This document shows, one piece after another, positions 8,061 to 53,935 of a DNA stretch of 64,000 nucleotides. Under the pieces are notes generated by a model, which saw only the letters and a program-made list of their open reading frames with translations, was not told the DNA's origin and did no database searches. The stretch is from Mytilus galloprovincialis. Lineage: Eukaryota; Mollusca; Bivalvia; Mytilida; Mytilidae. The position numbers and the translations under genes were made by a program. Within the stretch, counting starts at the first letter, position 1. Each line of letters opens with the position of its first letter. The stretch lies in assembly GCF_965363235.1 (NCBI RefSeq), contig NC_134839.1, positions 96,119,743 through 96,183,742 of the forward strand, given 5' to 3'.

Positions 8061-8297
8061 TCGTTTGTTGATGTGGTTCATAAGTGTTTCTCGTTTTTTA
8101 TATAAATTGGACCGTTGGTTTTCCCGTTTAACTGGTTTTACACTGGTAATTTTTGGGCCCTTTATATGTTGATGTTCGGCGTAAGACTAGGCTCCGTGTT
8201 GAAGACCGTACTTTGACCTATAATGGTTTACTTTTTTAAATTGCGACTTGGGTGGAGAGTTGTCTCATTAGCACTCATACCACATCTTCTTATACAT
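8047..8297 (+). repeat. tRNA-like SINE family A, copy 1
   Basis: Head reads TTCAGTAGTTGTCGTTTGTT followed by GTGGTTCATAAG, resembling pol III A and B boxes. The body has GACCGTTGGTTTTCCCG, TTTTTGGGCCCTTTATA and CTCCGTGTTGAAGACCGTAC. The tail is GGAGAGTTGTCTCATTAGCA then CTCATACCACATCTTCTTAT. Copies of head, body or tail recur at 24.0, 24.7, 29.5 (inverted), 41.5, 42.1, 51.6, 56.0-56.6, 61.1 and 61.6 kb (inverted). The 76-residue frame over the tail (8252-8482) is chance. Confidence 0.75.
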
Positions 8298-26600: not shown

Positions 26601-29600
26601 ATCTTCAGTGCTCATAAGCAGTATGATTATTCTCTAGCATACATGAACCTCATAAAGGTTATTTCAGAAACTTGTATTGTGTCAACTTGTTTGCATGGAA
26701 GTCATTTTAAAAATATTGCAAAATAAAAATTGAGAATGGAAATGGGGAATATGTCAAAGAGACAACAACCCAACCAAAGAGCAGATAACAACCAAAGGGC
26801 ACTAATGGGTCTTCAATGCAGAGAAAAAAATCACACACCCAGAGGTGGGCCTTAGTTGGCTCCTTAATAAAAATGTGGACTAATTCAGTGAAAATTTATG
26901 TCATACTAAACAGCAAAACATATAAACATGATAAATGAACTAAATCCAATTTCACAAAACATCAAATGACATATGCCTGTGAAAAACCCATATGAAAATA
27001 ACCAAAAAGTGGTTGTTTTCATTTTGACAAACATGCAATAGGTCATCCATATAATTCAACACTGTAAACCATATTCATTACATACGGTGGATTCATTTTA
27101 GTTGTTGAGTACTAGTGGATTCAGTGGATACACAAAACACAAAACACAATTAAGTTTTTAATGTTCAATGAATACTAAATTTCCAATATGCTTGTACTAC
27201 ATGTATACCATGCAAAATTTGGCAAAAGTTTGGAAATCAACTATCCAGAAAATACCTAAACAAAATTTCTTCGAGCCATAAAAAATAAATATCCTTACAG
27301 AACCATAAAATAACTCATAGATAGAAAGGCTGGTGTGGGAGGGGAACAATATATACACAATTATAATTCATATCTTGTGTCTTTGGTAGATAAATGAGAA
27401 AAGAATTCTGGAACATGAACTTAAACAGATGAAGAAAGGACAAGTAAGGTTCAAGTAAAATTGAGAATGGAAATGGGGAATGTGTCAAAGAGACAACAAC
27501 CCAACCATAGAACAGACAACAGCAGAAGGTCACCAACAGGTCTTCAATGCAGCGAGAAATTCCCGCACCCGGAGACGTCCTTCAGCTGGCCCCTAAGCAA
27601 ATATATATACAATGTACAGTCTAGCTAGTTCAGTGATAATGTATTAGAGAAAGCATAATTTAAAGCAGATAAATTGCACATTACTATATATATTGGAAAT
27701 TATAACTGCATGAATTTGTGTTTAGTAAGACAGATGTGATGTACTAGAAAAAATATGCATAACTCAAAAGAGTATTCACTACAATAGCCAAGTAATTAAA
27801 AAAATAACTGACCGTAACAGTTACATAGTATTCCCAAGAAAGATTTACATGTGTAGAGAGTGACAGATTGGCTAATTGGTTTCGATGAAAATAAAAAAAA
27901 TATATATCTTGGGGAAAAAGATAAGAAGTTTTTTGTTAGAGCCCTTGAATAACTCTAGTAAGCTTTGATTAAAGCAATAAGTTGAGACATTACAAACTTA
28001 AACAAATACATCATTTATTTCAATTGATTGCATTTATACATTGTATAACAGTGGGTCTCATTGGGGTCTAAGCGTGACACGGGATTGCCGATTTTTTGTA
28101 AGCGTGACACATGAAAGTCAAATAATTGTGTTGTGAAAATGGGAAATGAGGTCTTGCGGGACCCGGGAAATGACAAAAAAATGAGAATTGCTTAGTTACA
28201 TAGTGTAAGCGGGATACGGGAATCTGACAAAACAGTAAGCGGGATCTGGGATCATAACCCCCCAATGAGACCCCCATAACAATACTTAAAATTACAGCAA
28301 TATAATCTTGAACCTGTTTTCTTTTCAGAGTGCATATAAGCAACAAACAAATAGTCATATTTTCTTCAAAGAAGATGTAACAAAAGTATTTTCAGAATGT
28401 AAAAGTAAGTTAAAGAATTCTTATATAGAGTAACATTTAAGCCCTGAAATAATTCTACTATATGTAGAAGTCATTGTGCAATATCACAAACAGGCTAAAA
28501 TAACACTAAATTAAGTTGGTTGTATTCAGGGAAAAGGAATACTATAGTCATTCCCTCTGTTATCAATAATCATTACAACATGTAGCTAGGGTCCAGTTAG
28601 GGTTTACAGATTATGTAGCTAGGGTCCAGTTGGGGTTTACAGATTATGTAGCTAGGGTCCAGTTAGGGTTTACAGATTATGTAGCTAGGGTCCAGTTGGG
28701 GTTTACAGATTATGTAGCTAGGCTCCAGTTGGGGTTTACAGATTATGTAGCTAGGGTCCAGTTGGGGTTTACAGATTATGTAGCTAGGGTCCAATTGGGG
28801 TTTACAGATTATGTAGCTAGGGTCCAGTTAGGGTTTACAGATTATGTAGCTAGGGTCCAGTTGGGGTTTACAGATTATGTAGCTAGGGTCCAGTTGGGGT
28901 TTACAGATTATGTAGCTAGGGTCCAGTTGGGGTTTACAGATTATGTAGCTAGGGTCCAGTTAGGGTTTATAGATTATGTAGCTAGGGTCCAGTTGGGGTT
29001 TACAGATTATGTAGCTAGGGTCCAGTTAGGGTTTACAGATTATGTAGCTAGGGTCCAGTTGGGGTTTACAGATTAGTGAATAATGAGCAAAGAACACACA
29101 ATAAAGGAGGAAAAGAAATTATGAACTCTTTCTCATTCATCGAAGAAAGAAATCGGTAAGAATTATATAGAAAGGCCCCATCAAGTGTCAGAAAATTATA
29201 ATATCAACAACTATAGTTTTTTTTATTAGAAAAGCCTATATGGATTTGGATTGAAGATTTGATGATTTTAAGACAAATTTTAGAAAGTGTTTCTCTCAGT
29301 TCAATGTGCTTTCTAAACACAAGTTTTACAGCAGTTTTGTCAGAATTCAGAAATGTTTAAAATGCTACGATCTAAATCCTTTAAATTTATACCAAAACTG
29401 TTAGACAACTTCTTATACGAATTTTAGATTACATGTATCTCCCATTGAATCTCATTGACAGCATATGTGGTATGATTGCCAATGAGACAAATTTTCACAA
29501 GAGACCATATGACACAGAAATTAACAACTATGTCTCAGACCCTTATTATTTGTGTTATTTTTTTAGAGAGTTTGGATGAACTAATTGAAGAATATAAGCA

Positions 29601-29959: not shown

Positions 29960-31158
29960 TATACGACCGCAAATTTTGAAAAAATTTTCGTCGTATATTG
30001 CTATCACGTTGGCGTCGGCGTCGTCGTCGTCGTCCGGCGTCCGAATACTTTTAGTTTTCGCACTCTAACTTTAGTAAAAGTGAATGGAAATCTATGAAAT
30101 TTTAACACAAGGTTTATGACCACAAAAGGAAGGTTGGTATTGATTTTGGGAGTTTTGGTCCCAACATTTTAGGAATTAGGGGCCAAAAAGGGCCCAAATA
30201 AGCATTTTCTTGGTTTTCGCACTATAACTTTAGTTTAAGTTAATAGAAATCTATGAAATTTTGACACAAGGTTTATGACCACAAAAGAACGGTTGGGATT
30301 GATTTTGGGAGTTTTGGTCTCAACAGTTTAGGAATTAGGGGCCAAAAAAGGGCCCAAATAAGCATTATTCTTGGTTTTCGCACAATAACATTAGTTTAAG
30401 TAAATAGAAATCAATGAAATTTAAACACAATGTTAATGACTACAAAAGGAAGGTTGGTATTGATTTTGGGAGTTTAGGTCCCAACAGTTTAGGAATTAGG
30501 GGCCAAAAAGGGACCCAAATAAGCATTTTTCTTGGTTTTCGCACCATAACGTTAGTATAAGTAAATAGAAATCTATGAAATTTAAACACAAGGTTTATGA
30601 CCATAAAAGAAAGGTTGGGTTTGATTTTGGGAGTTTTGGTCCCAACATTATAAGGGGCCCAAAGGGTCCAAAATTAAACTTTTGTTTGATTTCATCAAAA
30701 TTGAATAATTGGGGTTCTTTGATATGCTGAATCTAACTGTCATGACTGTGTATGTAGATTCTTAACTTTTGGTCCCGTTTTCAAATTGGTCTACATTAAG
30801 GTCCAAAGGGTCCAAAATTAAACTTAGTTTGATTTTGACAAAAAATGAATCAGTTAGGTTCTTTGATATGCTGAATCTAAAAATGTACTTAGATTCTTGA
30901 TTATTGGCCCAGTTTTCAAGTTGGTCCAAATCGGGGTCCAAAATTAAACTTTGTTTGATTTCATCAAAAATTGAATAAATGGGGTTCTTTGATATACCAA
31001 ATCTAACTGTGTATGTAGATTCTTCATTTTTGGTCCTGTTTTCAAATTGGTCTACACTAAAGTCCAAAGGGTCCAAAATTAAACTTAGTCTGATTTTAAC
31101 AAAAATTGAAATCTTGAAGTTCTTTGATATGCTGAATCCAAAAATGTACTTAGATTTT
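29960..31158 (+). repeat. Family C element, copy 1 (tandem duplicate of copy 2)
   Basis: Starts TATACGACCGCAAATTTTG, then CGTATATTGCTATCACGTTG and a GTCGTCGTC run. Four units of about 161 bp follow, each beginning near TTTTCGCAC(T)(C)TAACTTTAG, then units of about 115 bp built on GGTCCAAAATTAAACTT and TTCTTTGATATGCTGAATC. It stops at TTAGATTTTTA, where copy 2 begins. The 104-residue minus-strand frame at 30762-31076 is identical to part of the frame at 31953-32381, which shows recent duplication and not coding. Confidence 0.9.
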
Positions 31159-33212
31159 TATACGACCGCAAAATTTGAAAAATTTTTCGTCGTATATTGC
31201 TATCACGTTGGCGTCGGCGTCGTCGTCGTCGTCCGAATACTTTTAGTTTTCGCACTCTAACTTTAGTAAAAGTGAATGGAAATCGATGAAATTTTAACAC
31301 AAGGTTTATGACCACAAAAGGAAGGTTGGTATTGATTTTGGGAGTTTTGGTCCCAACATTTTAGGAATTAAGGACCAAAAAGGGCCCAAATAAGCATTTT
31401 CTTGGTTTTCGCACTATAACTTTAGTTTAAGTTAATAGAAATCTATGAAATTTTGACACAAGGTTTATGACCACAAAAGAACGGTTGGGATTGATTTTGG
31501 GAGTTTTGGTTTCAACAGTTTAGGAATTAGGGGCCAAAAAAGGGCCCAAATAAGCATTATTCTTGGTTTTTGCAGAATAACTTTAGTTTAAGTAAATAGA
31601 AATCAATGAAATTTAAATACAATGTTAATGACTACAAAAGGAAGGTTGGTATTGATTTTGGGAGTTTAGGTCCCAACAGTTTAGGAATTAGGGGCCAAAA
31701 AGGGACCAAAATAAGCATTTTTCTTGGTTTTCGCACCATAACGTTAGTATAAGGAAATAGAAATCTATGAAATTTAAACACAAGGTTTATGACCATAAAA
31801 GGAAGGTTGGTATTGATTTTGGGAGTTTTGGTCCCAACAGAATAAGGGGCCCAAAGGGTTCAAAATTAAACTTTGTTTGATTTCATCAAAATTGAATAAT
31901 TGGGGTTCTTTGATATGCCGAATCTAACTGTCATGACTGTGTATGTAGATTCTTAACTTTTGGTCCCGTTTTCAAATTGGTCTACATTAAGGTCCAAAGG
32001 GTCCAAAATTAAACTTAGTTTGATTTTGACAAAAAATGAATCAGTTAGGTTCTTTGATATGCTGAATCTAAAAATGTACTTAGATTCTTGATTATTGGCC
32101 CAGTTTTCAAGTTGGTCCAAATCGGGGTCCAAAATTAAACTTTGTTTGATTTCATCAAAAATTGAATAAATGGGGTTCTTTGATATACCAAATCTAACTG
32201 TGTATGTAGATTCTTCATTTTTGGTCCTGTTTTCAAATTGGTCTACACTAAAGTCCAAAGGGTCCAAAATTAAACTTAGTCTGATTTTAACAAAAATTGA
32301 AATCTTGGGGTTCTTTGATATGCTGAATCCAAAAATGTACTTAGATTTTTTATTATGGGCCCAGTTTTCAAGTTGGTCCAAATCAGGATCTAAAATTATT
32401 ATATTAAGTATTGTGCAATAGCAAGTCTTTTCAATTGCACAGTATTGCGCAATGGCAAGAAATATCTAATTGCACAATATTGTGAAATAGCAAATTTTTT
32501 TTTAATTAGAGTTATCTTTCTTTGTCCAGAATAGTAAGCAAGAAATATCTAATTGCAAAATATTGTGCAATAGCAAGATTTTTTTTTAATTGGAGTTATC
32601 TTTCTTTGTCCAGAATCAACTTAAATCTTTGTTATATACACTATACAATGTATATTCACTTTTTACTACCAACTGATCTTTCTTTGTCCAGAATCAACTT
32701 AAATCTTTGTTATATACAATATACAATGTATATTCACTTTTTACTACCAACTGATAAATTAAAATAATCTTTACCATTCAGTGATAACAAGCAGTTTTTT
32801 TACATCTTAATATTTTATGATGTATTTAAATGAGTAGTTATTGTTGCAAACTCCATTAGAAATTTTAATTGAGATTAGTTTTGGAATAAGGGAAAGGGGG
32901 ATGTGATTAAAAAAATTGGGTTCAATTTTTCTCATTTGAAATTTCATAAATAAAAAAGAAAATTTCTTCAAACATTTTTTTGAGAGGATTAATATTCAAC
33001 AGCATAGTGAATTGCTCTAAGAGAAAACAAAAATTTTAAGTTCATTAGAACACATTCATTCTGTGTCAGAAACCTATGCTGTGTCAACTATTTAATCACA
33101 ATCCAAATTTAGAGCTGAATCCAGCTTGAATGTTGTGTCCATACTTGCCCCAACCGTTCAGGGTTCAACCTCTGCGGTCGTATAAAGCTACACCCTGCGG
33201 AGCATCTGGTTT
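31159..33212 (+). mobile_element. Family C element, copy 2 (near full length, about 2.05 kb)
   Basis: Begins TATACGACCGCAAAATTTG and ends CTGCGGTCGTATAAAGC + TACACCCTGCGGAGCATCTGG. The outer GCGGTCGTATA at 33174-33184 is the exact inverse of the start. After the two tandem-unit blocks come repeated ATTGTGCAATAGCAAG motifs (32408-32580), a 77-bp tandem duplication (32600-32755) and an AT-rich segment. No protein frame spans it. Non-autonomous TIR element by appearance; the transposase class is unknown. Confidence 0.75.
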
Positions 33213-33385
33213 GTTGATTGTTGACAAGCAGGTGACAATCGTTAAATTTCGGCTTCAAAACATGAACTTTAATTACCTGCCATATTTTTACAACAACACT
33301 GACCAATTGAAAAAAAAATTGATGACTATACGAAATTTATGTGAAAAAAATGATAAAATCGTGCACAGAAGACTAAGTTTATAAT
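33207..33385 (+). repeat. Dispersed repeat family J, copy 1
   Basis: TTGTTGATTGTTGACAAGCA, AAATTTCGGCTTCAAAACAT, ACCTGCCATATTTTTACAAC and CGTGCACAGAAGACTAAGTT pair with the complement of 60565-60745. It abuts the end of family C copy 2. Confidence 0.65.
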
Positions 33386-33519
33386 CGTTAGTCATTGGTT
33401 CAAGAATTGGAATAACATATTTTACACTGGTCACTCGTTTCATATGACTTCAGTGTTCTCCCCAGGATTTTTTGATAGCGCTGTGGTAAGCGCGCGATGA
33501 TCGATTCATTCACCATTTT

Positions 33520-35620
33520 TATACGACCGCAAAAATTTTAATTTTTTGGTCGTATATTGCTATCACGTTGGCGTCGTCGTCTGCGTCGGCGTCGTCGTCG
33601 TCGTCCGAATACTTTTAGTTTTCGCACTCTAACTTTAGTAAAAGTGAATAGAAATCAATGAAATTTTAACACAAGGTTTATGACCACAAAAGGAAGGTTG
33701 GGATTGATTTTGGGAGTTTTGGTCCCAACATTTTAGGAATTAGGGGCCAAAAAGGGCCCAAATAAGCATTTTCTTGGTTTTCGCACTATAACTTTAGTTT
33801 AAGTGAATAGAAATCTATGAAATTTTGACACAAGGTTTATGACCACAAAAGAAAGGTTGGGATTGATTTTGGGAGTTTTGGTTCCAACTGTTTAGGAATT
33901 AAGGGCCAAAAAAGGGCCCAAATAAACATTATTCTTGGTTTTCGCACAATAACTTTAGTATAAGTAAATAGAAATCAATGAAATTTTAACACAAGGTTTA
34001 TGACCACTAAAGGAAGGTTGGGTTTGATTTTGGGAGTTTTGGTCCTAACAGTTTAGGAATAAAGGGCCCAAAGGGTCCAAAATTGAACTTTGTGTGATTT
34101 CATCAAAAATTGAATAATTGGGGTTCTTTGATATGCCGAATCTAACTATGTATGTAGATTCTTAATTTTTGGTCCCGTTTTCAAATTGGTCTACATTAAG
34201 GTCCAAAGGGTCCAAAATTAAACTTAGTTTGATTTTAACAAAAATTGAATCCTTGGGGTTCTTTGATATGCTGAATTTAAAAATGTACTTAGATTTTTAA
34301 TTATTGGCCTAGTTTTCAAGTTGGTCCAAATGGGGGTCCAAAATTAAACTTTGTTTGATTTGATCAAAAATTGAATAAATGGGTTCTTTGATATGCCAAA
34401 TCTAACTGTGTATGTAGATTCTTAATTTTTGGTCCAGTTTTCAAATTGGTCTACATTAAGGTCCAAAGGGTCCAAAATTAAACTAAGTTTGATTTTAACA
34501 AAAATTAAATTCTTGGGCTTATTTGATATGCTTTATCTAAATATGTACTTTGATTTTTGATTATGGGCCCAGTTTTCAAGTTGGTCCAAATCAGGATTCC
34601 ATATCAAGTATTGTGCAATAGCAAGAAATTTTCAATTGCACAGTATTGCACAATAGCAAGAAATATCTAATTGCACAATATTGTGCAATAGCAATTAATT
34701 TTCAATTGGAGTTATCTTTCTTTGTATAGAATAGTAGTTGATAATATATGTTGGAAATTTGCCAGACATGACTATGATGTCATTTTCTATTTTTATTTGC
34801 CAATAACTTTATGTAAATAACTTCATTGGAAATTTGCCAATATAAAATGTTGCTGATGAAGCTTTTTTTCCTTATCTTATCTAAAATGTTTTTAGATAAT
34901 GTATGTTGGACATTTGCCAGACATGACTATGATGTCATTTTCTATTTTTATTTGCCAATAACTTTATGTAAATAACTTCATTGGAAATTTGCCACTATAA
35001 AATGTTGCTGATGAAGTTTTTTTTATTGTTTTATACAATAAACAATGTATATTCACTTTTACTACCAACCAATCTTTACCATTCAGTGATAACAAGCACT
35101 TTATTTTACATTTTAATATTTTATGATGTATTTAAAAGAGTAGTTATTGTTGCAAACTCCATTAGAAATTTGAATTGATATCAGTTTTGGAAAAAGGGAA
35201 GCGGGGATGTGAAAAAAAAGGGGGGGGGGGTTAATTTTTCTCATTTCAGATTTCATAAATAAAAAGAAAATTTCTTCAAACATTTTTTTGAAAGGATTAA
35301 TATTCAACAGCATAGTGAATTGCTCAAAGGCAAAAAAAAACCTTTTAAGTTCATTAGACCACATTCATTCTGTGTCAGAAACCTATGCTGTGTCAACTAT
35401 TTAATTTTAGATTTAAAAAGTTTGAAGAAGAAATCTTTAATTGATTTGTAAAATCTTGACATTTGTTTTGTGTAAAAAAAAACCATGTAATGTCAAAAAT
35501 TTGATCACAATCCAAATTCAGAGCTGTATCACGCTTGAATGTTTTGTCCATACTTGCCCCAACTGTTCAGGGTTCGACCTCTGCGGTCGTATAAAGCTGC
35601 GCCCTGCGGAGCACCTGGTT
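33520..35620 (+). mobile_element. Family C element, copy 3 (full length, 2.1 kb)
   Basis: TATACGACCGC at 33520-33530 and GCGGTCGTATA at 35583-35593, followed by the conserved AAGCTGCGCCCTGCGGAGCA end. It has three 161-bp units rather than four, the ATTGTGCAATAGCAAG cluster (34606-34695), and a 159-bp tandem duplication (34739-34868 and 34898-35025, sharing TTTGCCAGACATGACTATGA). A G-run follows at 35219. Confidence 0.8.
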
Positions 35621-35739
35621 GGTTTATGCCAGCTTTGTTGATTAATGCCTCATAAACTTTAATTAATGAAGAAGCTGAAAAAACATGATCTAGCTAAGTG
35701 ACACCATCACTGAATTAGATTGAGGCTAATTATTGTGTT

Positions 35740-36107
35740 ATTTTTTTTGGAAAAAGGAAGGGGGGGAGAAAAAAAATGGGGGACAAATTTTTTCTCATTT
35801 CAGATTTCAGAAATAAAAAAGAAAATTTCTTCAATTTTTTTTTTTTTTTGGGGGGGGGGGGATGTTAATTGGCAACAGCATAGACTAGTGTTATGCACAA
35901 AAACAAAATATTGAATATAAATTCTAATCATAACCAATTCTAAGTTCTTTGACCACAGTTATTCTCTGTCAGATATCTATTATGTGTCAAATATTTAATT
36001 ACAATCCAAATTTAGACCTGTATCAAGTGGGAATGTTGTGTCCATTTTTTCCCCAAATGCACAGGGTTGGACCTCTGCTATCGTATCCAACTGTGCTCGG
36101 CGAAGCA
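35740..36107 (+). repeat. Family C element, 3' fragment (copy 5, diverged)
   Basis: TTGGAAAAAGGAAGGGGG, TCATTTCAGATTTCAGAAAT, TGTGTCAAATATTTAATTAC and GTTGGACCTCTGCTATCGTA parallel 35185-35620 of copy 3 with clear divergence. Confidence 0.65.
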
Positions 36108-36119
36108 ATTTATTTTATT

Positions 36120-36435
36120 TTAAGATAAATACATAAATAATGAAATAGAAAGTTTAGTTAAGACCTCAGTTGTAGATGGTTATATCAATAACTTTCAAAC
36201 TAGCCATCATGGCATTTTATCAGCTTGTTATTTTTGAAAATAAGAATTTATGAATTTAAAAAAAACATATCTGTCAGATAAATGTAACTGCATACAGTTC
36301 AAAATGTGGATATCATTCTTTGTGCCATTCAACTGTTCCTTATGTCGTAACTACAATCCCCTTCCCTTTTCACAAATGTGACCTAACAAATTATTTACAG
36401 GATTTGTAATAACATGAGCAACATAACGTGCCTCA
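36120..36435. other. Intergenic, nothing recognised
   Basis: AT-rich with no supported exon. Confidence 0.35.
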
Positions 36436-37920: not shown

Positions 37921-38694
37921 ATCCTATTACTTAATATAAGAGAGAAATTCAAAATTTATTTCAAGTAGTGACCAACTAATTAAAATGATGTCAAAGACAA
38001 TTGAATTATGAGGGCAGAAACTATGCAACATAAAACATCTGAATAAGAGGTTTGAAGCATCCACATCTACTTCCTCTTGAAATATTAAGCTTTAAACCAA
38101 TAGTTTATGCCATTGAGTCATTGACACCACCTGTTTATAATCCCTTTCCAGCATTCTGCAACCTTCTTCACAGAAGACAATAACTAGTAGTTTTTCAGAG
38201 TTAGATGTGCATACCACGGACTGCTAGTATGTACATCGTAGCTTCATGTTGGGTAACATGGGTAAGGAATACTATGTCAAATAATTTGAAATGTATTTTA
38301 ATGGGTTCATATTAATGCCTATGATATTTTTTTGTCTAGTCTTAATTTTATTGGATATTATGTGGTATGATGTAGGTTTTAAGTCATATGTTAGTTGAAG
38401 ATAAGCACATGCTTAAAGGAAACACAAAGTTTTATTGTTTTTATTGCACCACATAAAACATTTGGAAAATCTAATCCATTTCTTCTGTTTTGTACCTGCC
38501 ATGGGCAACTCATGTAGACATTGATCTGCACCCTGAACATTGGTGATATCACCCAAGGTTTTTGGTGGGTCTAGGGTTGTTCAGTCTGGAGTTTTCTAAA
38601 AGTGCTAAAGGGAGTGGTATTACTTTTATTCAACTATGTTTAATTATCCATATGGTGTCTTCAATCTCTTTGTATTGTACTACATTAAATCATA
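37921..38694. other. Intergenic, nothing recognised
   Basis: No exon or confident repeat. Confidence 0.35.
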
Positions 38695-39539
38695 AACCAG
38701 ATGCTCCGCAGGGCGCAGCTTTATATGACCGCAGAGGATAAACCCTGAACAGTTGGGGCAAGTATGGACACAACATTTAAGCTTAATACAGCTCTGAATT
38801 TGGATTGTGATTAAATAGTTGATACAACATAGGTTTCTGACACAGAATGAATGTGGTCTAAGAACTTAAACTTAAAAACTTAAATTTTTTAAATTGGACA
38901 TTTACCTATTATGGTCCAATATCCAAAATCTAAATACATGGTTAGATTCAGCATATCATAGAAAGAATTCAATTTTTGATGAAATCAAATAATGTTCAAT
39001 TTTAGACCTTTTAAGACCTCAATGTGGACCAATTTGATAACCGGGCCCAAATATTAAAAATCTAAATACATAGTTAGATTCAGCATATTGAAGAACCCCA
39101 TATATTCAAATTTTGTTGAAATCAAACAAAGTTTAATTTTGGACCCTGATTTGGACCAACTTGAAAACTGGGCCCATATTCCTAAACTGTTGGGACAACA
39201 ACTCCCAAAATCAATCCCAATCTTCCTTTTGTGGTCATAAACCTTATGTTAAAATTTCATAGATTTCTCTTTACTTATACTAAAATTATTGTGCGAAAAC
39301 CAAGAAAAATGTTTATTTGGGCCCTTTTTGGCCCCTAATTCCTAAACTGTTGGGACCAAAACTCCCAAAATCAATCCCAACCTTCCTTTTATGGTCATAA
39401 ACCTTGTGTATAAATTTCATAGATTTCTATTTACTTATACTAAAGTTATAGTGTGAAAACAAAATGTCTTCGGACGACAACGACGCCAACGTCATACCAA
39501 TATACGACCAAAACATTTTCAATTTTTGCGGTCGTATAA
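38695..39539 (-). mobile_element. Family C element, copy 4 (short form, inverted)
   Basis: Starts AACCAGATGCTCCGCAGGGC + GCAGCTTTATATGACCGC and ends TTTTTGCGGTCGTATAA, so both family ends are present in 0.85 kb. About two 161-bp units and two of the shorter units remain and the AT-rich middle is largely gone. It ends 300 bp from the cytochrome c stop. The small frames at 39427-39664 run across its end. Confidence 0.75.
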
Positions 39540-48883: not shown

Positions 48884-51239
48884 CGGCCTAGCTAAGATCA
48901 GATGTGCATTTCATATTGGGTCTATGTTATAGGCTTGTAAAGACAAGAAGATAAACTTTTACATAAGTAATACATCTTTGAACTGAAGAAGAGAATGTAG
49001 GGCTTCACAATGAATATCAAATATCATGTATAGGTGTTACCGTTTTGAAAAAAAACACTAAAATACACGCTGAAAATGGGCAAAATTTCACGTTATGTTG
49101 TTTCATTTAAAATTTCGCTGTTTTTATCAATTGATAGTTAATAAATGAACTTAATTTGAACTACATTATTGGTTCACTGCTATAGACAATTTATTCATCT
49201 TTCTTTTACTGGTTGTTGCAACAAAAAATCTTCAGTGGTTACAAAGTTATGATAAAAAGTTGAATACTATGCGCTCGTTATGAAATTTTGTACTTTTGTT
49301 TTTAGCTTGCTCAGTGTAGTGATAAAAGAGAAATATAAATCAAATTTATGCTATTATGTGTTTTTTTTTCTCTTCTAGTATATACATTATCAAAAACTAC
49401 CTCATTTATCAAAATTGCAGTACCCTAGCTGGAGATATATGCCATCAAAGTTGGATATACAAATAAAGTGAAAAAATGTCTTGTCCGTAGACATGCATTC
49501 CCTGGTAAACTGGAAGCATAATTACATTAATGTTGCATTGCTAAGTTCCTGTTCTTTTGTAGATATGAAAACACTACTAACATTTTTTTCTACCATCTAT
49601 TAATAGAGGAAAAAATTCAAAAATATGTCAGAATGTCTTGTCCGTAGACACATGTCTTGTCCGTAGACATGTCTTTTTATCAATATTGCTTGGCTTTATG
49701 GGTCTTAATTAGTCCTATGTGTTATTTAAACTTAGAAATATCTTATTTTTAATAAATAAATGGTAATTTAAGTGTTCTCAATTTTTGTAAAATTACTTTA
49801 CAGGAGTGGATTTTAAAAAGTGTCAGATTATCAGTCATAAAAAGCATACCTTATTTTACTTCAATATTGTTTATTCCAGTTGCTGCATACCTTAAAAGAT
49901 TAACTAAATCAAATGAAGAAAAAGTATTTCTCTCTCTATAACTTTATCTTTTGCATTTCAGTATTAACAGCAGATGAGGAAGTGTCTATGGACAAGACAC
50001 TTGTACATAACAAGTATTAAATTCAATTATTTGTCTGCTATGGAACTTAAATCTTATTTATAGGTGATGAAAGTTATCTATTCAAATTAAAACTCAGTAT
50101 TTTCAACATAAATATAGTCACAATTAATTCTAACAGATTTTTTTTTGAACTGAAATTGTCTTGTCCGTAGACATTACCACAATATATTTGTATCCAATTT
50201 CCTTGAGTTCAGCCTAATTTGATAGGTAAAATGTATGTTATTTTTTCAAGAGAACACATTCAACTATGTCAAAATTGAGTTTTAATAATAGTTTGATTGT
50301 TTTAAACAGTCAGATATATGGATTTCAGTTAAAAGAATGTGTCTTCATTTTGGCTTAATCAATAAATTATTGAGATATGTAAAGAATTATGGGTACATTT
50401 TTATATTTTCCAAAATTAAAAAACACCGCTTAAAATTTAATTAGTAACTTTTAATCTTAACTTTAACAATCATCTTTGAAAGTATTTAATTGAATATCAA
50501 TAAAATGTCTTGTCCGTAGACATTATCAAAATGTATTTGTTTCCATTTTCCTCGAAGTTAAGCATCATTTGATAGATAAACCTGATAAAATGTATGGTTT
50601 TTTTTCAAGAGAACACTTTCAGCTATATCAAAATTAGGTTTTAATAATGCATTTCATTAAATATCAATACAATGTCTTGTCCGTAGACAAAACATATAAA
50701 TTGTATTGCTAAGTTTGATTGTTTATTGTAAGAATATGCATCAAGTTATTTTAATGTTCTATACACCAAAAGAAAGGGTTCTTTTGGAAGTTTTGTTATT
50801 TATAGATAATTTTAGATACAGTTTTATCAGATAAGATTAATGATCAAAGAAAGCTACTGTTGTTTGAAATAACTGTGAGTCAAACATGTTCTTGTTATTT
50901 TTTTTTCAATTAAAATGTTTGATATTCAATAGTTCTAAACATATTTTGTTGTCTTTGTCATTGACCAAAAATCTGACACTGGTGACCATGTCTTGAAGGC
51001 AACCATTAAAGAAAATTATACAGTTTTTAAACACCATTTATTTAATAAAAATATTAAATATTTCTTTCAAAAACTGCATGTAATTATATAAATGCTTCCA
51101 GTGTTAGCCTAACGATGGCAATTTTTCATAATTTAAACCATTTTTGAACCAAAATATCAAAAGAGTTTTTCCCTGAGGTGATACTCATTTTTGACTTCAT
51201 GTGAAACACAAAATGCACATCTGATTGTGGCTAGGCTGA
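48884..51239. mobile_element. 2.36-kb TIR element with seven copies of a 17-bp near-palindrome
   Basis: CGGCCTAGCTAAGATCAG + ATGTGCATTT at 48884-48911 matches, inverted, AAATGCACATCTGATTG + TGGCTAGGCTG at 51211-51238 (23 of 27 positions). TAAGCATT before and TAAGCGTT after are a possible imperfect 8-bp target duplication. The inside is AT-rich with no protein frame. TGTCTTGTCCGTAGACA occurs at 49477, 49634, 49653, 50157, 50506 and 50673, and once inverted with one change at 49983-49999. Probably a non-autonomous DNA transposon; the right tip CAG and 8-bp duplication would fit hAT, weakly. Confidence 0.65.
49477..50689. promoter_or_regulatory. Iterated 17-bp motif TGTCTTGTCCGTAGACA (seven sites)
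   Basis: Sites: 49477-49493, 49634-49650, 49653-49669, 49983-49999 (inverted, G to A at one position), 50157-50173, 50506-50522, 50673-50689. TGTCT and AGACA form inverted 5-mers around TGTCCGT. The motif is unchanged in six copies while the sequence between copies has diverged, as expected for a protein-binding site kept by use or a very recent spread. SMAD-type GTCT/AGAC boxes are present but not specific. Confidence 0.6.
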
Positions 51240-53935
51240 TAAGCGTTGTTGTGTTCGGTTTTAATTGTATAAAACAGGACTGAGACTACAATAACACAGT
51301 TATAGTAGTCTCAGAACAGGCATAGTAAAATTATATTGATTTTCCTTTTCTACTTTGGATATTTCAGTTTCAAACGAAACGGAAAAAAATTACATCAAAA
51401 GTAACGAATTTTCGTTCCCCGTTTATTTTTTTATTTTTTTTACGGATATTTTCCTTTGACTCCTTCTTATTGTGTGACTATATTAGGAGCCAAAGGAACA
51501 TCTCCGTAGAAAAGCCGTTGTTCGCGATGCGCGTGTGACCGTCTGTAACTGCGTTTTAGATATCAACGAACATTATTTTATATCCCGGTCCCACATCAGG
51601 AGCCTGTAATTCAAATTTGTTTTTTCTTTAATTCGTTAGTACATTAATCCGGCCGTTTGGTTTCTCGTTTGAATTATTATTATTATTTTTTTGCTGATCT
51701 AATGATTTTCTTTCGAAAGAAAGTCTATATGCATGTGTTTTAAATTAAACTTACATGTATTCAAAATTAACTGTATGTATTATAAATGGACTGTATTTTT
51801 TTTTTATAAATTGACTGTATTTTTTTAAAAATTGACTGTAATGCATTTCTTCTTTGTGTTTTTGCATGCTGTATTCATATATATATATTTTTTAAATTAT
51901 GCTTTGTATTGTAAAAAAAGATCATGACGCAACGTCAGATATTGCTACTACCACGAAAAATAGCGTTAAGATGGAACCTAACACTACAGGGAGATAACTC
52001 TGTAATGTCAGCTAAACGTTTTAATTACGTTGTGTTGTAAAAGGAATATTAAGCTTCTCAATGATCAAAATTGATGTTTGTCAAATTGCTATATAACCAG
52101 TGTAATTTTTCTGACAAAACGGTTGGTTCAAAAAATTTAAAATTTTTAAATTTTTATTTAAGGCTCGAAGTAAATACTTTGACAAAATTTTATGAAAATT
52201 AAACGAACCAAATTAATTTTAGTGAAAGTGTTGGGTAAAATATAATATTCATAGGCTTAGGAAGACACAGATTATCCGAAAAACGTTTACTTAGCGTTGT
52301 CCCATGTAACAAGCTCGGGACATAAAACTCGCACAATTCGCGAAATGTTCACGCAACTCTTCGAAATTTTGCATGAACATTCTATGAGGTGATATATTTC
52401 AGTACTGGTTAACATGGCTGTCTCCTTTTAAAATTTGCATACATATTTTCAAAAGAATATGATGTACGGAAATGTCTCATCGGAAATTTAATTTGGAAAC
52501 TTCAAACATTTCAGTTCAAAAATAAAATTTTGACAGAAAATTCATTAAATTGTAAGCACGATCGTTTTGTACTAAGTGTAAGCTTCCAAATTTCGAATTG
52601 AAAAATAAATTGAGCTACATATTCAATTCAAAACAATAGATTTGCAATGTCTTGCGGAATGTCCGAGTTAAACTTTCATGCCTTCACAAAACTTTTATGG
52701 CCAAAAAAACAGAGATTTGATTTCGTGAAGATTATTTTTCGGCTTTGATAACCATACCAATAAAAAGTACTTTAAAAGTTGAAGTTGGTACACCAAATAG
52801 CATTAACATTACAGGGTTATCTACAAAAAATACGGATTAATGAAAATGTCTTACAAGTTTGTCCGTTATCATAATTTGACGTCGCCAGAAGCGTTATGCT
52901 AGCTATAGGGACGGCATAATCTGCATTCGCTTGTTCCTTCCTCCACTAAATATAAATGTCCTGCTTTCAACAAAACGAAATGATGCACACATTACAAAAA
53001 TACACATCTATAAGACGATTAAAAGTAAGAAAACTTCAGTATCATAACTATAAGCTATTGTATGTTGCTGCTTGAATAAAATCATACTCGGGTTGAATAA
53101 ATATAATGCAGCAATATTCCTCCAAAAACACATAATTACTAGCAGTAAAATTGAATTTCCTATGTTAATTAATCCTCACTTTTAAAAATGACTTGATCCG
53201 CCCCTACGTATGATCATCCACATATTCAGCTTCCATATAGCAATTACATCCAAGTGATAAGTAAGTGTACAAATGGTGTAAGTGAAGCCATATTTACAAG
53301 GCTGTAATCACAAATGTCAACGTTGTTCCGCCTTACTAAAAATACACTGGAACCTTTGTAATAAACAATGTCACCCACCACTTGGAACAAATATTTTAAA
53401 CCCTTTATTCTGTTTTTCTAGTGAAAAGAATATTACATAATACATGTAATTCTTCCACTTGGAACATACATTATGAAAAAAAAACCTTCTATATTTCACG
53501 ACACAGACACTTGTCTCTGAACAAAATTAATATTATCTTTTTACCTTAAAATACCATTAAATGTATTATTCAGCTATACAGTTTTTTCCAACCTGAGACA
53601 AGTACATGCACTCGTGGCTTAGACACTTCTAAAAATACTAAGTTAGTAAGGATAATTAGAAACCTATTTGGAGGACCTTTGTCTTTGAAAAGTACTAAAT
53701 GTTTGAAAGCTAAAATTCTGTGGAAAGCATAAATTCAAAATCCCTCACGTCATCAATGTAAAAAGTTCAATCGCATGATGGTTTAGAAGATGAAAAAATT
53801 CCGACTCTGAATTTATCCAGTATGTGAATACCAATGATAAAAAAAATTGTCTGATGTGTTTAATAACAAAATAACTGGAAATAATATTACATAACGAGTT
53901 CTTCAAATTACAATTTTCGAATACAGGATCATACA
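51240..53935. other. Intergenic, dispersed repeats only
   Basis: 51590-51680 carries a partial SINE A head (GGAGCCTGTAATTCAAATTT, GGCCGTTTGGTTTCTCGTTT). 51960-52110 contains ACTACAGGGAGATAACTCTG, text I associate with a bivalve repeat. No exon is supported. Confidence 0.35.

Follow-up and report, generated by a model that had tools for sequence, protein, structure and literature searches.

A block of about 2.36 kb in the genome of the mussel Mytilus galloprovincialis carries seven copies of a 17-bp sequence between inverted ends, which raises the question of what this block is and why such a short sequence should persist inside it. The analysis covered the 64-kb stretch of DNA that holds the block (the window) and a search of the genome (1.38 Gb, 331 contigs). 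In keeping with a Mytilus mussel, this genome contains an open frame of 770 codons for the decapeptide repeat of mussel foot protein, with up to 100% identity over 50 aa.

Extent and coding capacity of the element

The block is best read as one copy of a family of non-autonomous cut-and-paste transposons with terminal inverted repeats (TIRs), bounded by the sequences CGGCCTAGCC...GGCTAGGCCG (Table 1). The inverted ends of the window copy extend over 29 nt with 86% complementarity, while the TIR valid for the whole family is 28 bp, and some copies, L018 among them, have it without a mismatch at either end; in a second family form, the right TIR departs from it at two bases. The first-pass annotation, made from the sequence of the window, had described 27-bp inverted ends and placed the block at 48884..51239. 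The ends exist, with a family repeat of 28 bp, and the left edge stood, while the right edge had to be moved to 51238, the position that best fits the duplications flanking other copies. No ORF of at least 60 aa was found within the element, its six-frame translations matched no Pfam family, and the Rfam search (gathering scores) and the tRNA scan gave nothing across the 64-kb window. Common boundaries with TIRs, a narrow range of target-site duplication (TSD) lengths and the lack of transposase coding, the features by which a non-autonomous TIR transposon is recognized, were all found.

Table 1. Features of the element, in window coordinates
Feature	Position	Strand	Remarks
Complete non-coding TIR transposon copy (best reading)	48884..51238	+	~2,355 bp (2.36 kb)
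Left terminal inverted repeat	48884..48911	+	28 bp, family form CGGCCTAGCCAAGATCAGATGTGCATTT
17-bp site 1	49477..49493	+	TGTCTTGTCCGTAGACA
17-bp site 2	49634..49650	+	19-bp tandem pair with site 3
17-bp site 3	49653..49669	+	19-bp tandem pair with site 2
17-bp site 4	49983..49999	-	inverted, one change
Internal duplication, first copy	50153..50289	+	carries site 5
17-bp site 5	50157..50173	+	
Internal duplication, second copy	50502..50648	+	carries site 6, ~350 bp off
17-bp site 6	50506..50522	+	
17-bp site 7	50673..50689	+	
Right terminal inverted repeat	51211..51238	-	28 bp; two subfamily forms (TTGTGG / TCTTGG)

Other repeats were also noted in the window. An inverted repeat of 16 bp with a 3-bp loop (94%) lies at 51280-51314, just beyond the right end of the element. 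At 28580-29075, a 33-bp unit is repeated 15 times in tandem (96% matches), and a large cluster of tandem units of ~126-161 and 260 bp, in both orientations and with copies up to 9 kb apart, extends over 30026-36121 and 38694-39485. A dispersed repeat around TTGTCTCATTRGCACTCATACCACATCTTCTTATA forms one family with six copies, at 8260, 24037, 41693, 42569, 56031, and 56109.

Members of the family in the genome

With up to two mismatches, the 17-mer was found at 779+652 places of the genome, compared with 88+85 for the reversed control. The 100 matches listed were all exact, lay on a single contig (C1) and formed 17 clusters; each of these 100 exact 17-mers sat in a stretch aligning to the element, which agrees with the single-element reading of the first-pass annotation rather than with a 17-mer scattered apart from the ends. 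One motif-found cluster, L013, was a truncated element copy with a single site. Altogether, 44 distinct places were examined, comprising the window copy, the 17 loci found by the motif and 26 found by the whole-element search, the latter being those left after dropping three that were already among the motif-found loci. Both ends were present, as the same reading had it, in 15 of the 17 loci found via the 17-mer alone and in 42 of the 44 places overall, although the presence of both ends in the whole-element matches is partly due to the search mode.

The first look yielded 298 candidates for the whole element, 228 for the right end and 223 for the left end, from which we estimate about 225 copies with an end; the figure is an estimate because only the best 40 of each candidate list were scored. 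The 39 other copies scored among the best 40 of 298 showed 95-98% identity, and the aligned copies diverged from their majority sequence by 1.6% on average, a low divergence that implies a recent spread of the family. The form of the right end splits 38 aligned copies into groups of 20 and 18, which differ at 27 subfamily-diagnostic positions. Judged from the spacing, one site of the 19-bp tandem pair has been lost in 2 of the 38 copies. Large insertions were seen inside two element copies, at L011:994-2289 (1,296 bp, with long internal repeats) and at L025:959-2298 (1,340 bp). These matched neither each other nor the window, and, being mutually unlike and located at different points of the element, they were taken as nested DNA and not as parts of a longer form.

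Two same-strand left ends lie 2,233 bp apart at C9:18376423-18379053 (minus strand), which suggests tandem element copies. An exact 17-mer followed by G at C3:99993442 probably belongs to an element copy, since a right-end match lies ~1.25 kb away. Two exact 17-mers, outside the 100 listed, were found 141 bp apart at C5:47406932-47407090 (minus strand); they are preceded by C, unlike the seven contexts in the element, and are not followed by TTA, unlike the sites starting at 1272 and 1622 of the element. Judged by their context, this pair may belong to a relative, to an independent array or to an altered element copy, and it is the best lead to a relative of the element.

Target-site duplications

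With the element bounded at 48884..51238, 15 of the 42 copies had flanks repeated over 3 bp and 10 had flanks repeated over 4 bp, none of which was counted twice, while the expectations from mismatched pairing of flanks were 2.9 and 0.5, respectively. The remaining 17 of 42 copies, including that in the window, had neither. No 8-bp flank match was detected in any of the 42 copies at any offset tried. Consequently, the possible imperfect 8-bp direct repeat of the first-pass annotation is not a TSD, its occurrence at the window copy being attributed to chance since none of the 42 copies matches at 8 bp, and the same result (0/42 at the offsets tried) ruled out hAT, P, Merlin and any other superfamily with 8-bp TSDs. 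As far as those parts of the literature that state duplication lengths go, AcademX elements generate 3 or 4 bp (PMC10045372), Academ elements in iMITEdb 3 bp (PMC5199201), Zator 3 bp, and Sola2 an AT-rich 4 bp (PMC3627910); Academ has also been described, in a passage of PMC10294476, as amplified in bivalves. By duplication length only, an AcademX-like superfamily is the lead to follow.

Search for an autonomous partner

The first-pass annotation had also raised the possibility of a larger relative encoding a transposase. Such a relative was not found by TIR scans, by the pairing of ends or through XPG_I domains. The TIR scan that excluded the family interior returned one match, one base off the family form. 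With three mismatches allowed and the interior again excluded, 70+82 matches were obtained against 99+139 for the reversed control, and several of the best-scoring ones resembled, by eye, variants of the family's own ends. Left and right ends taken from the best 40 of 223 and of 228 candidates formed 19 pairs, all 19 spanning 2,228-2,720 bp and none larger. The XPG_I domain (PF00867) had three matches in the genome, none of them tied to TIRs. Neither the motif pair nor the TIR had an exact match in viral contigs. The full 17-mer did not occur in the main texts of the 5.39 million papers searched; pieces of 11-12 bases occur in 13 papers, whose titles do not concern transposons.

Arrangement of the 17-bp sites

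The 17-mer TGTCTTGTCCGTAGACA has seven copies within 49477-50689, and a search of the whole 64 kb that tolerated three mismatches revealed no others (mean chance expectation 0.15). This confirmed the seven copies reported at first, including the inverted one with a single change (49983, minus strand); the change is a CpG change that is private to the window copy among the 38 aligned copies. The description of the DNA between the copies as diverged holds for most of the block; the exceptions are sites 5 and 6, which lie in an internal duplication whose pieces are 84-89% identical, and sites 2 and 3, which form the tandem pair. In addition, site 7 has ~27 bp of its left flank in common with site 6 and a weak right-flank likeness to site 1. 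The seven copies of the motif did not, then, all arise independently.

Within the element, the sites start at 592, 749/768, 1098 (inverted), 1272, 1622, and 1790. A period of 171-172 bp fits these positions with a vector strength (phase coherence) of 0.98-0.99, the sites falling into slots 0, 1, 3, 4, 6, and 7. Depending on the treatment of the 749/768 pair, only 3, 0, and 0 of 5,000 random sets were as good. The periodicity became weaker when the duplicated sites were collapsed, with 19, 45 or 103 of 4,000 random sets matching it according to which sites were dropped.

The period and the slots could be the trace of a satellite-like array that a transposon captured and that has since decayed; it would have had about eight monomers of 171 bp, with the 17-mer as their last recognizable box, of no present role. 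The single plain internal duplication and the flank likeness of sites 6-7 and 1-7 agree with such an origin, and bivalve mobile elements with central repeats of 160-180 bp are known from the relevant passages of PMC7492417. However, the segments between the sites are little alike: apart from a strong match between m4 and m6 (the duplication spaced by 350 bp) and a weak one between m3 and m4, no general homology was detected among them, and core-core similarity did not exceed core-flank similarity (p = 0.67). Furthermore, a passive remnant should change across the copies at the pace of the DNA around it, whereas the sites change more slowly (see below). We consider a captured relic of this kind quite unlikely. 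Decayed tandem monomers were rejected as the sole explanation, as the segments yielded no more than a single strong duplication and a single weak match. A CENP-B-box satellite consists of homologous tandem monomers of ~170 bp that carry a 17-bp box. A CENP-B-box-like satellite array was likewise rejected, the period being present and general monomer homology absent.

The motif showed no significant similarity to the TIR (1357 of 5000 shuffles were as similar), so it was dismissed as a copy of the TIR. Because the motif is not TIR-like, a single protein reading both the TIR and the motif is unsupported.

Constraint on the sites

Substitutions were counted in an alignment of 38 near-full-length copies, from which 4 of the 42 copies were left out for large insertions or deletions. 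Per site, the rate was 0.29% in the motifs (13 substitutions over 119 columns in the 38 copies) and 1.66% in the 2,181 columns outside the motifs and TIRs (1,377 substitutions), ~6-fold lower in the sites than in the rest of the element. Sets of seven random 17-bp windows had 72.7 substitutions on average, and none of 20,000 draws was as low as 13. The difference persisted when the CpG columns were removed (0.18% in the motif vs 1.60% elsewhere). The CpGs themselves had decayed by 1.1% in the motif and by 11% elsewhere, a comparison of just 14 columns on each side, and when columns were matched by base and CpG context, 130 substitutions were expected as compared with the 13 observed, the CpG part of this figure coming from only 14 columns outside the sites. 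One degraded copy, L016, contributed 4 of the 13 motif substitutions; without it, 9 were observed against a matched expectation of 125. Conservation of the short motif is thus better supported than the window by itself could show. The left TIR behaved similarly, its 28 columns having 2 substitutions over the 38 copies (0.19%), while the right end had 65 in 29 columns, much of it being the subfamily difference; given this variation on the right, constraint does not extend to every base of the ends. Taken together, the sites and the left terminus are under strong constraint in the copies compared.

An apparent constraint could be produced by the choice of copies, as 11 of the 38 were drawn from the list of exact 17-mers and a whole-element search may give weight to repeated words. 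It could also arise by mutation, or by gene conversion among the sites. Yet the 27 copies picked by whole-element score (7 substitutions vs 89 expected) showed the effect at least as strongly as the 11 C1 copies from the exact-motif list (6 vs 44), and it is implausible that conversion would act in tracts of 17 bp between diverged flanks. We regard an artefact of either kind as very improbable.

The age of the variants bears on what maintains the sites. Variants common to at least two copies were found in 1 of 119 motif columns and in 155 of 2,181 others (p = 0.002), and the sites contain none of the 27 positions diagnostic of the subfamilies; these two results point to selection in the source lineages. 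Variants private to one copy were depleted as well (11 of 119 motif columns, where ~20 were expected, vs 376 of 2,181; p = 0.012). Selection in source lineages alone need not produce this second depletion, which leaves room for a role in the host after insertion.

In such a case, a host factor of transcription or chromatin would bind the sites, which would act like a CENP-B-like box or a boundary element in nucleosome-length register, and the copies would be co-opted or maintained after insertion. The spacing of the sites fits nucleosome-like multiples of 171 bp, and both the scarcity of private variants and the low CpG decay in the motif, measured on only 14 columns each side, would be expected from it. 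Maintenance by the host would, however, have to act on all of ~225 dispersed young copies, which seems unlikely, and it does not account for the similar conservation of the left terminus, which should be needed only for transposition. The depletion is strongest for shared variants, which predate insertion, and all of the 100 listed exact 17-mers lie within the element, though the two on C5 stand in a foreign context. On this balance, we judge upkeep by the host to be unlikely.

A proposed role for the sites

The explanation that we think probable is a non-autonomous cut-and-paste transposon that is moved in trans and whose internal sites are bound by a protein needed for its propagation. A transposase acting in trans would recognize the 28-bp inverted repeats and make the 3-4-bp duplications, and a sequence-specific protein would bind the array of 17-bp sites placed at multiples of ~171 bp. 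The first-pass annotation had likewise suggested that a transposase or a host factor binds the motif. This second protein might belong to the transposon system, as another DNA-binding domain or an accessory protein, or it might be a host factor exploited by the element, in which case chromatin, transcription or complex assembly would be set up on the element. Both versions agree with the nucleosome-like spacing. A copy that lost its sites would leave few descendants, so that in the source lineages the sites would persist unchanged while the remainder of the element drifts. Since the sites are central and do not resemble the TIR, the proposed binder would be distinct from the function that reads the ends. 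Two points count against the model: transposase sites do not usually lie as far in as these, which are 0.6-1.8 kb from the left end, and the searches described above found no autonomous partner.

The common view of non-coding transposons is that they require nothing but their ends. A more specific and tentative reading, doubtful but worth stating, is that the internal 17-bp array in its nucleosome-length register represents a third cis-requirement, at which a separate protein organizes chromatin or assembles the transposition complex. If this were true, the family would depend on a protein apart from the end-binding transposase, encoded by the host or by a transposon. Selection on the internal sites can be read directly in the copies compared and is of an order similar to that on the left terminus, so that the family offers a natural experiment for finding a DNA-binding factor on which a mobile element depends in bivalves.

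Comparison with known systems

Among elements with comparable duplications, the AcademX branch of Academ resembles the mussel element in its 3-4-bp TSDs, as given in the part of PMC10045372 on TSDs; it differs in that no transposase, XPG nuclease or longer partner was found for the mussel element in the searches described above. Pearl, HINE and MgE, the non-autonomous bivalve elements with the 160-180-bp central repeats, are like it both in their non-autonomy and in a core of nucleosome-length periodicity (PMC7492417, passages on these elements). The mussel element differs from them in having few recognizable monomers, of which it is mainly the 17-bp site that can be discerned. The oyster elements are described as Helentrons, whereas the mussel element has 28-bp TIRs and 3-4-bp TSDs. 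The mussel element was for this reason not assigned to Helentron / HINE, its TIRs and 3-4-bp duplications ruling out such a classification.

Helentron and HINE elements are defined by the lack of a TSD and of a true TIR. The TNPA sites of En/Spm and the subterminal motifs of Ac are arrays of short sites for the transposase or an accessory protein, and the mussel element is like these in its many short conserved sites in both orientations. The En/Spm and Ac sites are subterminal, whereas those of the mussel element leave ~590 bp free at one end and ~550 bp at the other.
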